A stretch of DNA of 64,000 bases, taken from the NCBI GenBank assembly GCA_001664505.1, contig CP011806.1, positions 782,021 through 846,020 on the forward strand, in the 5' to 3' direction. Below, one piece after another: positions 1,604-37,700 of this stretch. The stretch comes from Acidobacteria bacterium Mor1. GTDB taxonomy: Bacteria > Acidobacteriota > Polarisedimenticolia > Polarisedimenticolales > Polarisedimenticolaceae. The position numbers and the translations under genes were made by a program. How positions within the stretch are numbered: position 1 is the stretch's first letter; every line of letters starts with the position of its first letter. The notes under the pieces were generated by a model that was given only the letters and a program-made list of their open reading frames with translations, searched no databases and was not told the DNA's origin.

Positions 1604-2341
1604 ATGGCGCAATGTGAAGTCTGCGGCGGATCCGGGTTCAACATCCGCACCGACGACCAGGGGGTCGCTCGATCCACCCGCTGTAGCTGTGCCGACGGCG
1701 AACGCACCGAGCATCTGCAACGCAACGCGCGGATTCCCCGGCGCTACGACCATTGCGAGTTGGACACCTTCGAGGAGTTCAACGAGACCCTGCGCGAAGC
1801 CCGGGGCCTGGCCGGCGAGTGGCTCGAGAAATGGCCGCGGGTCGAGTCCGGACTGTTGTTCCAGGGACCGCCCGGAACGGGCAAGACCCACCTGGCCGTG
1901 GCGATCGCCAAGGCGCTGGTTCGGGACAAGGGAGCCCGGGTCCTGTTCTACGAGCAACGGGACCTGCTCAAGACCCTTCAGGGGACCTTCGATGAGAACG
2001 CGGCGCGCAAGGAGTCCGAGGTGCTCGGGCCGATCCAGAACGTCGAGGTCCTGGTCCTCGACGATCTCGGCGCGGGACGGATCACCCCGTGGACCCGGGA
2101 CGTGATGCACGACATCATCGCCTACCGCTACAACAACCGTTTGCCGTTGATCATGACGAGCAACCACGCTCCGGGAGAAGACGCTCCGGCAACCACCGGG
2201 GACGCGCAGCCTGCGGCGTTGACGCTCCACGACCGGCTCGGACCGGCCCTGATGTCCCGGCTCTATGAGATGTGCCGGATCGTCTCGGTCCGTGGTGACG
2301 ACTACCGCAAGGGCGTGCTCCACGCCCGGCACCGTTTTTGA
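1604..2341 (+). CDS. DnaC/DnaI-like AAA+ ATPase (putative helicase loader)
   Basis: 245 aa. The N-terminus is a small zinc-finger-like knuckle (CEVCGGSG ... CSC, res 4-28), then an AAA+ core with Walker A GPPGTGKTH, Walker B VLVLDDLG, and sensor 1 PLIMTSN. This is the layout of DnaI/DnaC/IstB-type loaders, which place the replicative helicase on DNA. No transposase is adjacent, so IstB of an insertion sequence is unlikely. DnaI/DnaC is the most economical reading, but a loader role in this organism is inferred. It follows the sigma-factor gene by 70 bp on the same strand. Confidence 0.8.
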   Translation: MAQCEVCGGSGFNIRTDDQGVARSTRCSCADGERTEHLQRNARIPRRYDHCELDTFEEFNETLREARGLAGEWLEKWPRVESGLLFQGPPGTGKTHLAVAIAKALVRDKGARVLFYEQRDLLKTLQGTFDENAARKESEVLGPIQNVEVLVLDDLGAGRITPWTRDVMHDIIAYRYNNRLPLIMTSNHAPGEDAPATTGDAQPAALTLHDRLGPALMSRLYEMCRIVSVRGDDYRKGVLHARHRF

Positions 2342-32212: not shown

Positions 32213-32241
32213 TTGACACGTCGGCGGGGCCTGTCTACACT
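32213..32241 (+). promoter_or_regulatory. parA-parB promoter
   Basis: TTGACA (32213-32218), 17 bp, TACACT (32236-32241). The leader is about 100 nt and contains a GGGGT/ACCCC hairpin near 32265-32283. Confidence 0.8.
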
Positions 32242-32350
32242 CGTGTCGCGTACTCCCAACATCCTGGGGTTACGGACACCCCGGTGCGCAGCATATGGCG
32301 GTCACCCCTCCAGAAATGCCCCGGGCCGGCACCCCTGACGAGGTCCGCTC

Positions 32351-33112
32351 ATGTCGATGATCATCGCCATCGCCAATCAGAAAGGGGGAGTCGGTAAGAC
32401 GACGACCGCGATCAATCTGGCGGCCGGCCTGGCAAAGAAGAACCTCAAGACCCTGCTGATCGACATGGATCCGCAGGGAAACGCCACCCTCACTTATCTG
32501 GACGCCGAGCAGGTCGACATGTCGATCTACGACCTGCTGGTCGATCCCCAGGTCACCGCGGAGCAAGTGATCCGCACCTCCGAGCTGGCCGAGCTCGACG
32601 TGATTGGCTCACGCATCTCGTTGGCCAAGGCCGAGGCGAAGCTGATCTCGGAGTTCGACAGTCATTTCCGGCTCAAGGACAAGCTCGACGCCGTGCGCGA
32701 TTTCTACGACTACGTGGTGATCGACACGCCGCCGGCGCTGGGCATCCTGACCGTCAACGCCCTGGTCGCCGCGACGCACCTGATCGTGCCTATCCAGTCG
32801 TCCTACTACGCGCTGGAGGGGACCGACGATCTCCTCGACACCTACGAGAAGATCAAGGCGCGCCCCAACCCGGACCTGGAGTTCCTCGGCGTCGTGGTAA
32901 CCCTCCACGACCGCCGTACGGTTCTGGCCCGGGATATCCGAGAGCAGATTCAGAAGGTCTTCGGCTCGAAGGTCTTCCGCACCACCATCAGCAAGAGCGT
33001 GCGGCTCGAAGAGAGCCCCGCCTACAAGCAGAGCATCTTCTCCTTCTCGCCCCGTTCCTCGGGTGCGAGCGAGTACTACAGCCTTTCCGAGGAGGTGATT
33101 GGCCGTGTCTAA
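32351..33112 (+). CDS. parA: ParA/Soj-type partition ATPase
   Basis: 253 aa. Deviant Walker A NQKGGVGKTTTAINLA with the signature Lys, IDMDPQGNAT switch region, and Walker B YVVIDTPPALG. It is a short ParA without an HTH, i.e. the chromosomal/Soj class (type Ib plasmid ParAs are similar). ATP-bound ParA coats the nucleoid and is released by ParB, moving ParB-DNA complexes. parB overlaps its end by 8 bp. It has its own promoter, and the pair ends at a strong terminator. The location beside a dif-like site rather than an origin is unusual. Confidence 0.95.
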   Translation: MSMIIAIANQKGGVGKTTTAINLAAGLAKKNLKTLLIDMDPQGNATLTYLDAEQVDMSIYDLLVDPQVTAEQVIRTSELAELDVIGSRISLAKAEAKLISEFDSHFRLKDKLDAVRDFYDYVVIDTPPALGILTVNALVAATHLIVPIQSSYYALEGTDDLLDTYEKIKARPNPDLEFLGVVVTLHDRRTVLARDIREQIQKVFGSKVFRTTISKSVRLEESPAYKQSIFSFSPRSSGASEYYSLSEEVIGRV

Positions 33113-33986
33113 GCTACGAGGCCTTCCCCAGAAAAAGACCATGCGCCACGACAGCCACTTCGTCGAGGAGATCACCTCACAGCGGTCTCCCTCGATCGGG
33201 CGCATGATCGACATCGAGAGCATCGTCCCCAACCCGCAGCAGCCTCGGCAGCACTTCGGTGACCTGTCTGAGATGGTCAGCTCGATCAAGGAGAAGGGGA
33301 TTCTCGAACCGATCCTGGTACGCAGCCACGAGGGCCGGTTTCAGATCATCGCCGGCGAGCGCCGCTACCAGTCGGCGAAGCTGGCCGGCCTGCACCAGGT
33401 GCCCTGCATCGAGGTCGACGTCGACAACCGGGGCATGCTCGAGATCTCGCTGATCGAGAACCTCCAGCGCAAGGATCTGACCCCGTTCGAAGAGGCCGCC
33501 GCAATCCAGCGCCTCAGCGACCAGTTCCGCTACACCCATGAGGAGATCGCCAAGAAGCTGGGCAAGTCGCGCACGGTGATCACCGAGGCCCTGAGCCTCA
33601 ATCGACTGCCGACAGAGATCCAGGAGCGATGTCGGCAGGCCGACATCACCAGCAAGTCGATGCTGCTCCAGATCGTCCGGCAGCCCACGGTAGAGCGGAT
33701 GCACGCCCTGATCGACAAGATCGACTCCCAGGGCATTACCCGTGAAGAGGCCCGGCAGTACACCCGGGACTCCGGCACCCGGCCCCCTCGGCGGGCCCGG
33801 CACTACACCTACCGCTACAAGCCCGAGGACGAAGACTTCCGCTTCAGCCTGACCTTCCGTAAGCCCGAGGTCGAGAAGACCGAGCTGATCGACGCTCTGA
33901 AGCGCGTGCTGGACCGGCTGGTTTCCGAGACCGAAGCCGAGGCCGCCGGGCCGGTAGAAGCTGAGGCAGGGCAGTCAGACGCCTGA
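33105..33986 (+). CDS. parB: ParB/Spo0J-type CTPase, DNA partition protein
   Basis: 293 aa from GTG 33105, selected because GGAGGTGA (33091-33098) is well spaced; an in-frame TTG at 33099 is too close. The N-terminal CTP-binding domain has GERRYQSAKLAGLHQVPC and the ParB box ISLIENLQRKDLTPFEEA; the central HTH is EEIAKKLGKSRTVITEAL. The C-terminus carries a basic linker and a dimerisation helix ELIDALKRVLDRLVSE. GERRY instead of the usual GERRW suggests divergence from the origin-type Spo0J. The binding site (parS) is unknown. Confidence 0.93.
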   Translation: MSKLRGLPQKKTMRHDSHFVEEITSQRSPSIGRMIDIESIVPNPQQPRQHFGDLSEMVSSIKEKGILEPILVRSHEGRFQIIAGERRYQSAKLAGLHQVPCIEVDVDNRGMLEISLIENLQRKDLTPFEEAAAIQRLSDQFRYTHEEIAKKLGKSRTVITEALSLNRLPTEIQERCRQADITSKSMLLQIVRQPTVERMHALIDKIDSQGITREEARQYTRDSGTRPPRRARHYTYRYKPEDEDFRFSLTFRKPEVEKTELIDALKRVLDRLVSETEAEAAGPVEAEAGQSDA

Positions 33987-34009: not shown

Positions 34010-34037
34010 AAGGGCCGCCTTCGGGCGGCCCTTTTTT
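34010..34037 (+). terminator. Rho-independent terminator after parB
   Basis: GGGCCGCC-TTCG-GGCGGCCC (34012-34031), flanked by AA and followed by six Ts (34032-34037). It is the only textbook intrinsic terminator in the window, 24 bp after the parB stop. Confidence 0.95.
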
Positions 34038-34332
34038 GTTGCACTCATCACGACGTCGCTCGTCAGAGTCGCGCCGGGTCGACAGGTACGCGCGCCGGCC
34101 GGGTCGGATGCCGGGAGCTGTTATCGATCCTGAGGCATCTTGGCGTGAGTCAATGAAACACCGTTTCCACCACTCGCAGGACCGACCATTGAGCCACGCG
34201 TCGGTTCGTCGCACGCGTTTCGAGCCCCAGTGATGGAGGTGCAATCCAAGGCACGGACATGAGCTTGAGACCGACCTCCATTTGCTGCCAGCGACCAAGG
34301 GAGGCAAAACAGCTCCCGGTGTCAGAGCTCAC

Positions 34333-34486
34333 TGGTCCCACGGACCACATCAACCGGGCACCGACTCGGGTCGGCAGGCAGACAGTTTGCCAGTCGTCGC
34401 TAGGAAGAGCGCATCCGCCGGCATTGGGCGTCTCGACGGGTCACGCGAGGGGTGGCTCGTAGCCAGGCTGTTTTGGTCTGGCAAAC
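34333..34486. ncRNA. Hairpin cluster, possible structured RNA
   Basis: TGGTCC-CAC-GGACCA (34333-34347), CCGAC-TCGG-GTCGG (34361-34374), and a 9-bp long-range pair GTTTGCCAG (34385-34393) / CTGGCAAAC (34478-34486) enclosing CGTC-TC-GACG (34429-34438) and TGGCT-CGT-AGCCA (34453-34465). No promoter is evident; the pairing could act in DNA or in RNA of either strand. Confidence 0.25.
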
Positions 34487-34725
34487 GCTGTGAGTTGACG
34501 GCCGAGCCGGCCGGCAAGCTCCTTGGCCCGAGGGATCAGAGCAGCGACCAAGGCGACACACGCAGCCATCGGCCCTTGGGATCGAACGCGCTAGATGCAG
34601 GATTGGGCAACGAGAAAGAAGGGGAACTGCGCCTGGGGAGCTTCGTTCACCGAGCGGCCTGGCGATCTCAGAACGACGAGATTCCCTGAGAAAGCCTCCC
34701 CCGGAATCCCAGCCAAATCATGCTG

Positions 34726-34753
34726 AGTTTACATAACATACATTATCGGACGT
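34726..34753 (-). other. Candidate chromosome-dimer resolution site (dif)
   Basis: Read on the - strand: XerC-side arm ACGTCCGATAA, 6-bp centre TGTATG, XerD-side arm TTATGTAAACT. The XerD arm is identical, as I recall the published site, to that of Bacillus subtilis dif. The centre differs from E. coli TGTATA by one base, and the XerC arm keeps the ATAA end. It lies in the only long intergenic region, exactly where gene orientation switches from + to -. XerC and XerD recombine such sites with FtsK to resolve chromosome dimers at division. Confidence 0.85.
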
Positions 34754-35174: not shown

Positions 35175-37700
35175 ATGTTCTCGAGCTTCCGCTGGAATCG
35201 CTACGTCTGGTCCGAGTTGGCCGGTCCGACTGCCCTCGGCATGTTGCTCTGGAACTTCCTGCTGCTGATGAACGCGTTCTTCCTGGTGGCCGAGACGGCC
35301 CTGTCGAAGAACCTCGGGTGGGGCCTGACCACCAAGATGTTCGTCCTGCAGATCCCCAGCATCCTGGTCATGACCATTCCGATGGCCGCGCTGTTCGCCA
35401 CGATGATCGCGGTCGGGCGGATGTCGGCAGACCACGAGTGGGTCGCCCTCCAGAGCGCCGGCCATGGTCCCGGCAAGCTGATGCGTCCGGTACTGGTCTA
35501 TGGATTGCTGGGATCGCTGTTGTCGCTCTTCGTCTACTTCGTCGTGGTTCCCCATGCCAACTATGCCGCCCGAACGATCCGCGGCCAGATGATCTTCGCC
35601 TCGAACCTGGCCTCGGACCTGCGCCCGGGCGTGTTTTACGACCAGGTGCGCAACGTGGTGATGTTCGTCGACAACATCGGCAGCGGGGAGAGCAAGAAGC
35701 TCGAAGGGGTGATGGTTCATCTGCGCCGCCAGGGCAGTTCCGGCGCCGAATTGATCCTGGCCCGCCATGGGGACCTGGTTCCCCTACCCGACGGCTCCGG
35801 CAAACTGGAGCTGCACCTCCATGACGGGGTGCTCTACGCCTACGACGAACGGGACACCGACGGTTATCAGATCGTCGACTTCGACCGGCAGGTCCGCCAA
35901 CTCGACGCCGCCACCATGCTGACCCAGTTGCTGGAACCGGATCAGAACCGGGTGGTCACCGACATGACCGCCGGAGAATTGCTCGAGGAGCGCCGCACAG
36001 CCTACGCCCAGAATGCCGACAACCACCTGATGCGGGAAGCCCGTATCCGCACCGTCGAGATCGAATTCCACCGGCGCATCGCTCTGCCGATGGCCTCGCT
36101 CCTGTTCTGCATCCTGGCGGTGCCCCTGGGCATCATCCGGGCGCGTTCGGGCAAGGGCGCCGGCTTCGCCCTCAGCATCGTGGTGATCCTGGTCTACTAC
36201 GTGGTCTTCACCGTGATGATCAAGCAGGCGACCACCGGGCGGATTCCCCCGTGGCTGGGCCCCTGGGCGGCAAGCTTCGTGATCATCCCCTGGGCGGCCT
36301 ACGCTCACTGGCGGTTGCACCAGGCGGTCGGCGGCCGCAGCTGGACCGACCGGGTTCGCGCCATTTTCGCCCGGCGTTCGCCTTCGACACAGCCGGTGCC
36401 GACGGCCCATCCCGCACCCTCGGGTCCCCTTCCCCAGCCGGATGCGGAACTCGAAGTCGCCAGCGACCCGCTGGCCGCCATCGCCGGGACTCCCAGGCGG
36501 TTCTTCCGCCGCATGGACAGCTACGTCAGCCTGCAGTACCTGCGCATGACCGGGTTCTCCCTGGTCGTCGCCTACCTGATCACCGCCATCGTCGAGACCA
36601 AGCGACTGGTCGACGGGGTGATGAAGAACGACCTGGGCTGGGACATCCTGCTCAGCTACCTGGCCTACGCGCTGCCCAGCATGCTGAACCTGGTGCTGCC
36701 CATCGCCTGCCTCATCGGCGGGATGGTGGCGATCACCGTGCTGACCCGGACCGGAGAGCTGACCGCGATCAAATCCAGCGGCGTCTCCATGCGCCGGGTG
36801 ACCCTGCCGGTTCTGTTCCTCACCCTGCTGGTTTGCGGCGGGATGTTCCTGGTGCGGGACAAGGCGGAGCTACCGATCAAGCTGCCCTGGTCCGAGGACC
36901 CGGTGACGGTCGGCTGGGCCATCGTGCCGACCACCAGCCGCAAGGCCGCCGAACTGAAGGACATGATCCTCGACCGCACGCCGATCTCCCGGATGACCGC
37001 AGGAGGACGCTGGGCCTTCGGCACCGGAGGCTCGCGGCTGTACCACTACCGGCTGTTCGACCCGGGCAAGCGGATCTTCCAGGGTCTGAGCGTGTTCGAG
37101 CTGGACCGCTCGGGCAGCCGGCCCCGGATCGTCGAACACCATCAGAGCGATACCGCCCAGTACGTCCCTGACCTGGCAGCCGCGGTGGGAGGCGAGACTT
37201 CCAACTGGAAGCTCCAGGGAGGCTGGTACCGCACCTTCCCCGAGCAGGGCATCGGGGTCAACGAGGCCGGCCCGGACCGAACCCTCGAACTGGATGCCCC
37301 GGCCAACTTCGAACGAAGCGAGAGCCGCAGCATGGGCGGGAGCGGTGACCTCGACGAGCACCTGACCCTGGCCCAGCTCCAGGAGCAGATCGGAGCCCTC
37401 GAGACCAACGGCTACGACACCACCCGGCTCCGGGTCGCGTACTTCGGCAAGTTCGCCCAGCCGCTGACCCCGCTTGTGATGGTTTTGCTGGGACTCCCCT
37501 TCGCCTTCCGGGTCGGCCGGCGGGGTTCACTCTACGGACTGGGGGTCGCCATCCTGCTGGTCATCGTCTACTGGGCGACCTTCGCCATCTTCAACGCCCT
37601 GGGGCTCGAGACCCTGCTGCCTCCCCTGCTGGCCGCCCTGGCGCCCAACGTTCTGTTCGGCCTGATCGGGATCTACCTGCTGCTCTACGTTCCGAGTTAG
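35175..37700 (+). CDS. LptF-LptG fusion, LPS-export permease
   Basis: 841 aa from ATG 35175; the open frame continues upstream without homology or a ribosome site. Two LptF/LptG units in one chain. Unit 1 (res ~1-395) has YVWSELAGPTALGMLLWNFLLLMNAF, a periplasmic jellyroll and LLFCILAVPLGI. A Pro-rich linker (~400-440) leads to unit 2 (~455-841), which starts MDSYVSLQYLRMTGFSLVVAYL and ends with three TM helices (PLVMVLLGLPFAFRVGRR). About 12 TM segments in total. It would form the whole membrane channel with two LptB. Normally lptF and lptG are separate genes. It stands alone, with no lpt neighbour. Confidence 0.9.
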   Translation: MFSSFRWNRYVWSELAGPTALGMLLWNFLLLMNAFFLVAETALSKNLGWGLTTKMFVLQIPSILVMTIPMAALFATMIAVGRMSADHEWVALQSAGHGPGKLMRPVLVYGLLGSLLSLFVYFVVVPHANYAARTIRGQMIFASNLASDLRPGVFYDQVRNVVMFVDNIGSGESKKLEGVMVHLRRQGSSGAELILARHGDLVPLPDGSGKLELHLHDGVLYAYDERDTDGYQIVDFDRQVRQLDAATMLTQLLEPDQNRVVTDMTAGELLEERRTAYAQNADNHLMREARIRTVEIEFHRRIALPMASLLFCILAVPLGIIRARSGKGAGFALSIVVILVYYVVFTVMIKQATTGRIPPWLGPWAASFVIIPWAAYAHWRLHQAVGGRSWTDRVRAIFARRSPSTQPVPTAHPAPSGPLPQPDAELEVASDPLAAIAGTPRRFFRRMDSYVSLQYLRMTGFSLVVAYLITAIVETKRLVDGVMKNDLGWDILLSYLAYALPSMLNLVLPIACLIGGMVAITVLTRTGELTAIKSSGVSMRRVTLPVLFLTLLVCGGMFLVRDKAELPIKLPWSEDPVTVGWAIVPTTSRKAAELKDMILDRTPISRMTAGGRWAFGTGGSRLYHYRLFDPGKRIFQGLSVFELDRSGSRPRIVEHHQSDTAQYVPDLAAAVGGETSNWKLQGGWYRTFPEQGIGVNEAGPDRTLELDAPANFERSESRSMGGSGDLDEHLTLAQLQEQIGALETNGYDTTRLRVAYFGKFAQPLTPLVMVLLGLPFAFRVGRRGSLYGLGVAILLVIVYWATFAIFNALGLETLLPPLLAALAPNVLFGLIGIYLLLYVPS

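Follow-up and report, generated by a model that had tools for sequence, protein, structure and literature searches.

The chromosome of Acidobacteria bacterium Mor1 carries a second pair of partitioning genes, parA2 and parB2, followed by a short near-palindrome and a fused permease gene. ParA and ParB genes normally lie near the start of replication, and the established task of Par systems is to move origins. The near-palindrome resembles dif, an ordinary bacterial feature at which joined sister chromosomes are cut apart at the end point of replication. The features of the locus are listed below, numbered in the window, that is, the whole 64-kb stretch of DNA that was analysed.

32213 to 32241, + strand: predicted sigma-70 promoter of parA2 (TTGACA, 17 bp, TACACT), picked out by eye; similar boxes occur in relatives.
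32253 to 32270: operator-like dyad 1, CTCCCAACATCCTGGGGT, in the parA2 leader; a candidate ParA2 or ParB2 site.
32285 to 32302: operator-like dyad 2, TGCGCAGCATATGGCGGT, spaced 32 bp from dyad 1, against 31 bp in same-order relatives.
32351 to 33112, + strand: parA2, a ParA/Soj-type ATPase with a KGGVGKT Walker motif.
33099 to 33986, + strand: parB2, a second chromosomal ParB with ParB_N and HTH_ParB domains.
34010 to 34039, + strand: inverted repeat and T run after parB2, resembling an intrinsic terminator.
34050 to 34720: single-copy DNA that separates the parB2 terminator from dif, with no counterpart in most relatives.
34696 to 34703 (genome 816,716), - strand: candidate KOPS octamer CGGGGGAG, the first minus-strand copy at the polarity switch.
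34726 to 34753 (genome 816,746-816,773), - strand: the 28-bp candidate dif site, ACGTCCGATAA TGTATG TTATGTAAACT.
34726 to 34736, - strand: XerD-type arm TTATGTAAACT; class consensus TTATGTNAACT, mean 1.70 bits over 26 loci.
34737 to 34742, - strand: 6-bp central region TGTATG; variable, mean 0.96 bits over 26 loci.
34743 to 34753, - strand: XerC-type arm ACGTCCGATAA; class consensus RCGTCCGATAA, mean 1.72 bits/base over 26 loci.
35175 to 37700, + strand: fused lptF-lptG permease gene (lptFG), the usual neighbour of dif on its far side.

The true start of parB2 is probably the GTG at 33105, because its relatives begin VSK. The lptFG gene is a single 841-aa frame, with the LptF model at residues 8-379 and the LptG model at 578-838, and similarly long fused genes are found in relatives of the class. 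These relatives belong to the Acidobacteriota, and one of them is named Candidatus Polarisedimenticola. The gene order in the class is scpA-scpB-rluB-S1-HU-mtaB-BFN-parA2-parB2-(dif)-lptFG, followed by genes on the opposite strand, and the wider synteny is kept class-wide from scpA to metK beyond lptFG. An intergenic gap as wide as 1.19 kb is a peculiarity of this genome; in most relatives, parB2 and dif are 35-205 bp apart. About 670 bp of the gap (34050-34720) hold no recognisable genes. A repeated element was considered for this DNA and ruled out, as it is single-copy, and no Rfam elements were found between BFN and lptFG.

What identifies the 28-mer as dif? On the + strand it reads AGTTTACATAA CATACA TTATCGGACGT, and it has the architecture of a chromosomal dif, with 11-bp arms in partial dyad symmetry around 6 bp. 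By analogy, the arms can be matched to XerC (ACGTCCGATAA) and XerD (TTATGTAAACT). As expected of dif, the full 28-mer is present once in the 5.985-Mb single-contig genome when up to three mismatches are allowed, and not in the several copies that the original prediction had named as the outcome at odds with it. Within the 64-kb window, the core ATAATGTATRTTATGTWAA has one match at up to three mismatches, and at the same tolerance it is absent from 100 dinucleotide-preserving shuffles. The dif motif score at the site is 42.5, against a best score of 3.7 across 40 control stretches from the same genome.

The site shares with the dif sites of E. coli and B. subtilis (served by XerCD and CodV-RipX, respectively) the 28-bp length with 11-bp arms and a 6-bp centre, the TTATGT core and ATAA end, a single copy, a position at the terminus, and the accompanying XerC, XerD, and FtsK-gamma genes. 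The XerD arm is identical to what we take to be the XerD half of B. subtilis dif, and the centre TGTATG is presumably one base off that of E. coli dif. In contrast to these well-known sites, the left arm ACGTCCGATAA is the Acidobacteriota form, the neighbourhood is parAB2-lptFG, and the associated octamers are other than GGGNAGGG. Using a Firmicutes profile, dif was previously predicted in three of three Acidobacteria (Kono et al. 2011, PMC3025954), and the site described here is likewise closest to the B. subtilis form. For the three acidobacterial genomes, that paper does not mention ParB, synteny, or neighbouring genes (PMC3025954).

Among class relatives, a 28-mer of this type was found 3' of the homologous parB wherever the contig continues. 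Across the 26 class loci the two arms are kept at 1.72 and 1.70 bits/base, the centre at 0.96, and the flanks hardly at all (0.26 and 0.20), as would be expected of dif. A pair of recombinase arms about a freely changing centre leaves just this pattern, and the 28-mer has therefore been filed as dif. A dif-like site with similar arms is present in most other Acidobacteriota sampled, and GTCYGATAA N6 TTATGTNAACT is a usable consensus. Five genomes have several dif-like sites each (G074, G044, G059, G042, and G094); there are about 14 in G074, many of them TTCCGATAACGGCC..TTATGTCAATT, and the multiple sites of these genomes are possibly mobile dif modules.

The position of the site in the chromosome was determined relative to dnaA and to GC skew. 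The dnaA gene is at 3,665,301, and dif lies 2.85 Mb from it, or 47.6% of the circle. The canonical parB is located at 3.640-3.641 Mb, together with a parA and with three parS sites of the TGTTCCACGTGGAACA type (parS-like sites at 3,641,203-3,641,371). GC skew was sampled genome-wide as 20 kb per 75 kb, and the region from 640 to 980 kb was analysed contiguously. In the sampled data, skew stays positive as far as about 700 kb, is negative for the most part between about 750 kb and 3.83 Mb, and is mostly positive after that. Cumulative skew has its maximum at 744,001 (in the contiguous 640-980 kb) and its minimum at about 3.83 Mb, which puts dif 73 kb, or 1.2% of the genome, from the maximum and in the terminus. 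This offset is a point against the dif reading, although it falls within the published one-sigma range of 0-1.39% between dif and skew shift-points (Kono et al. 2011, PMC3025954), and the skew extremum that the original prediction had expected near the site is in place. Its statement that the site sits exactly at the gene-strand switch needs correction: lptFG (35175-37700), to the right of dif, is still on the + strand, and the switch therefore comes about 3 kb further on, near 37.7 kb. An origin at this locus, a reading prompted by the nearby parAB genes, was considered and rejected: the search for a DnaA-box cluster gave two one-mismatch matches, which is the chance level, and dnaA is 2.85 Mb distant. 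At window positions 1850-2173 (+ strand), about 33 kb from dif, a possibly Hda-like open frame of 270 codons gives another match to the DnaA domain, a weak one (23.2 bits).

Octamer polarity was examined as well. The sampled 1.6 Mb served to rank octamers by their leading/lagging bias, and the leading:lagging counts there are 103:9 for GCAGGGGA, 102:12 for CGGGGGAG, and 131:42 for GAAGGGGA; the octamers were picked using the ori/dif split, which makes this overall bias partly circular, but not the fine position of the switch. For GCAGGGGA and CGGGGGAG together, the best orientation switch point in the contiguous region (C1:640001-980000) is 811,779-816,716, just beside dif. When the three octamers are pooled, 108 of 119 sites fit a switch at dif, and 83 of the 119 fit one at the skew maximum; of the 29 copies that lie from 744 kb up to dif, 27 still have the + orientation. 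A single CGGGGGAG copy 22 bp from dif faces away from the site and counts against the dif reading. As with KOPS and SRS, these are strand-biased, G-rich octamers that converge on dif, but they differ from the KOPS sequence GGGNAGGG; GAAGGGGA has GAAGGG in common with what is presumably the SRS of B. subtilis. All three are candidate KOPS of this lineage, with a strong strand bias that switches at dif.

The proteins expected to act at dif are also encoded. The XerD gene at 772,144 scores 367 bits, above the curated cut-off, and an FtsK with a gamma domain is found at 868,611 (FtsK-gamma, 94 bits); dif is flanked at a distance by the two, with xerD 45 kb and ftsK 52 kb away. A second strong Xer gene, at 3,623,193, scores 296 bits against the XerD model and, called solely from this match, is probably XerC, which would complete the set of XerC, XerD, and FtsK-gamma. 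We infer that the 28-mer is bound and cleaved, that dimers are resolved there, and that FtsK reads the octamers. In the proposed scheme, an odd number of crossovers would leave sister chromosomes joined as a dimer. FtsK, presumably septal, would translocate along the DNA, steered by the polarised octamers that converge on dif; its gamma domain would activate the XerD at TTATGTAAACT, leaving XerC at ACGTCCGATAA to finish the exchange of strands over the 6-bp centre.

Could the 28-mer be something other than a chromosomal dif? Attachment sites of integrative elements (IMEX) and mobile dif modules mimic dif, and the relatives with several dif-like sites (G074, G044, G059, G042, and G094) lend this idea some substance. 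However, the site is single-copy and at the skew and octamer switch, the housekeeping genes on either side of it keep their order class-wide, and the neighbours examined include no integrase or phage genes. A tRNA attachment site was sought as well, and there is no tRNA in the 64-kb window. An origin as an integrative element is thus very improbable. Even less credit can be given to a chance AT-rich near-palindrome or a promoter remnant, for which the A+T richness of the site speaks and nothing further; the absence of the core from all 100 shuffles, the score of 42.5 against 3.7 in controls, and the class-wide conservation oppose it. Judged by sequence and context, the candidate 28-mer at 34726-34753 is almost certainly the chromosomal dif of Acidobacteria bacterium Mor1, and the original reading as dif agrees with architecture, single copy, terminus position, skew, octamer switch, Xer and FtsK genes, and arm conservation. 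This provides a well-supported dif, with a consensus and candidate FtsK-guiding octamers, for a little-studied phylum, and locates the terminus with greater precision than GC skew.

The ParAB2 pair beside dif is the part of the finding that could matter more than dif itself. The genome has exactly two genes with ParB_N, one near the origin and the other parB2, and the latter adjoins a ParA-type ATPase and has ParB_N and HTH domains, as in ParABS systems. Among 291 good Acidobacteriota genomes, 168 have ParAB2. In the tree, ParB2 forms a group apart from canonical ParB (100/99 support) with subgroups by class, and therefore looks vertically inherited. By all appearances inherited vertically, the parA2-parB2 pair is a genuine second Par system and is linked to dif. 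ParB-like genes are more numerous in two draft genomes of more than 8 Mb, with 10 in G087 and 16 in G098.

Does ParB2 bind the same DNA as its relatives? Like the canonical ParABS at 3.64 Mb in the same genome, ParAB2 has the ParA Walker motif, ParB_N, HTH_ParB, and GERR and ENLQR motifs. The CTP-pocket motifs are retained almost throughout the group (GERR in 56/56, ENxQR in 53/56), as in ParABS. By contrast, ParAB2 lies at the terminus by dif, its parS-contact residues are replaced, and there is no canonical parS in the 64-kb window at up to three mismatches. The replacements are Q162 to H, N178 to E, and R204 to L, with H162, E178, and L204 found in 30/30 class ParB2 proteins, and G201 is mostly K or R; a DNA site of its own is therefore implied. 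Noc, the ParB paralogue of B. subtilis that binds NBS, is likewise a paralogue with altered DNA specificity. Unlike Noc, ParB2 has its own ParA, carries R173 (56/56) where Noc has Q173 of the NBS-specificity set Q173/K179/K184/R201, and has lost the contacts common to ParB and Noc (Q162, N178, and R204); it scores 159 bits against a Noc-model cut-off of 315 bits. Binding of ParB2 to parS or to the Noc site is unlikely.

Candidates for the cognate site of ParB2 are limited to the parA2 leader. Right after the predicted -10 box of parA2 lie paired 18-bp dyads (consensus ACCnCAAnATnTTGnGGT), 31-32 bp apart, which are seen in the nine sequences examined from the order, weakly in some. Their log-likelihood is 60.6, compared with at most 31.3 in shuffles (width 16). 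The pair is absent outside the order and its scores are level with the genomic background, and it was rejected as a genome-wide parS2. An operator is the best reading of the pair, which in this genome lies 2.4 kb from dif and is possibly a ParB2 site. No exact palindromes are enriched within 25 kb of dif relative to the rest of the sampled genome.

How tightly is ParAB2 linked to dif? Within the class, dif is 35-739 bp downstream of parB2 in 26 of the 26 loci with a continuing contig. Outside it, where neighbourhoods were read within 1.5 kb of dif or parB2, dif is at most 2.5 kb from parB2 in 14 of 26 ParB2-bearing genomes, and 6 and 13 kb away in two more. In six of the 14 (G095, G071, G066, G075, G063, and G098), ParB2 is present with lptFG undetected in the approximately 1.5 kb past dif. 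Linkage alone is no proof of function, because lptFG or BFN also adjoins dif without ParAB2 (L019, L025, L031-L035, L037, L251, and L256; BFN in two), and in G050 and G083 parB2 is 62-73 kb from canonical parB, on a contig other than that of dif. No report of a ParAB pair beside dif was found in the open papers searched. The retention of a second Par system by dif over deep divergence makes terminus partitioning by ParABS directly testable.

The most ambitious reading is that ParA2-ParB2 is a dedicated terminus partition system of Acidobacteriota, with a specificity for neither parS nor NBS, which positions or separates sister termini at dif or licenses their resolution, in parallel to the origin ParABS. 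If true, this would put a ParABS to work at the end of the chromosome that lies farthest from the origin. ParB2 would act as a CTP clamp loading near dif at its own site (parS2), and ParA2 would position or separate sister termini, or hold dif at the septum for FtsK/XerCD, which would resemble the part that MatP plays in E. coli. The likeness to MatP/matS would be a functional analogy, hypothetical for ParAB2; the protein families are unrelated, and no matS-like repeated site was found. A functional coupling of this kind is compatible with the dif reading, and several observations point towards it: the presence in 168/291 genomes as one group apart from canonical ParB (100/99), the adjacency to dif in 26/26 class loci and 14/26 outside the class, the persistence of ParB2 in the six genomes with lptFG undetected, the retained CTP pocket, the changed parS contacts that imply an own site, and the operator-like dyads, these last in one order. 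Against it stand the search for repeated palindromes, none of which is enriched out to 25 kb from dif, the restriction of the dyads to one order, the off-contig parB2 genes of G050 and G083, the many Acidobacteriota that have dif without ParB2, and lptFG, which is kept by dif without an obvious functional link, even in genomes without ParB2. Both the coupling to dif and the dedicated partition system are accordingly tentative, and rather doubtful on present evidence.

Since lptFG also widely adjoins dif, ParAB2 may sit there through positional inertia, as part of an old mtaB-BFN-parA2-parB2-dif-lptFG arrangement that is held together by the mostly symmetric character of rearrangements about the terminus. 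On this view, ParAB2 would have its site of action away from dif or would serve as a second Par system of a generic kind. This explanation is fairly probable. It accounts for the class-wide synteny from scpA, scpB, rluB, S1, HU, mtaB, and BFN to lptFG and metK, and for the lptFG or BFN genes that remain at dif where ParAB2 is missing, but it fits poorly with the adjacency of ParB2 and dif in several genomes in which lptFG was not found by dif, where the divergence of ParB2 is deep (40-50% identity). It has also to be considered that a secondary replicon (chromid) fused with the chromosome and left ParAB2 and dif as its remnant, as ParAB pairs are typical of plasmids and two Par systems are present in one chromosome. 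This is improbable: the dif is the sole one in the genome and at the chromosomal terminus, class ParB2 proteins form one group, as expected under vertical inheritance, and the neighbours examined include no replication-initiator gene.
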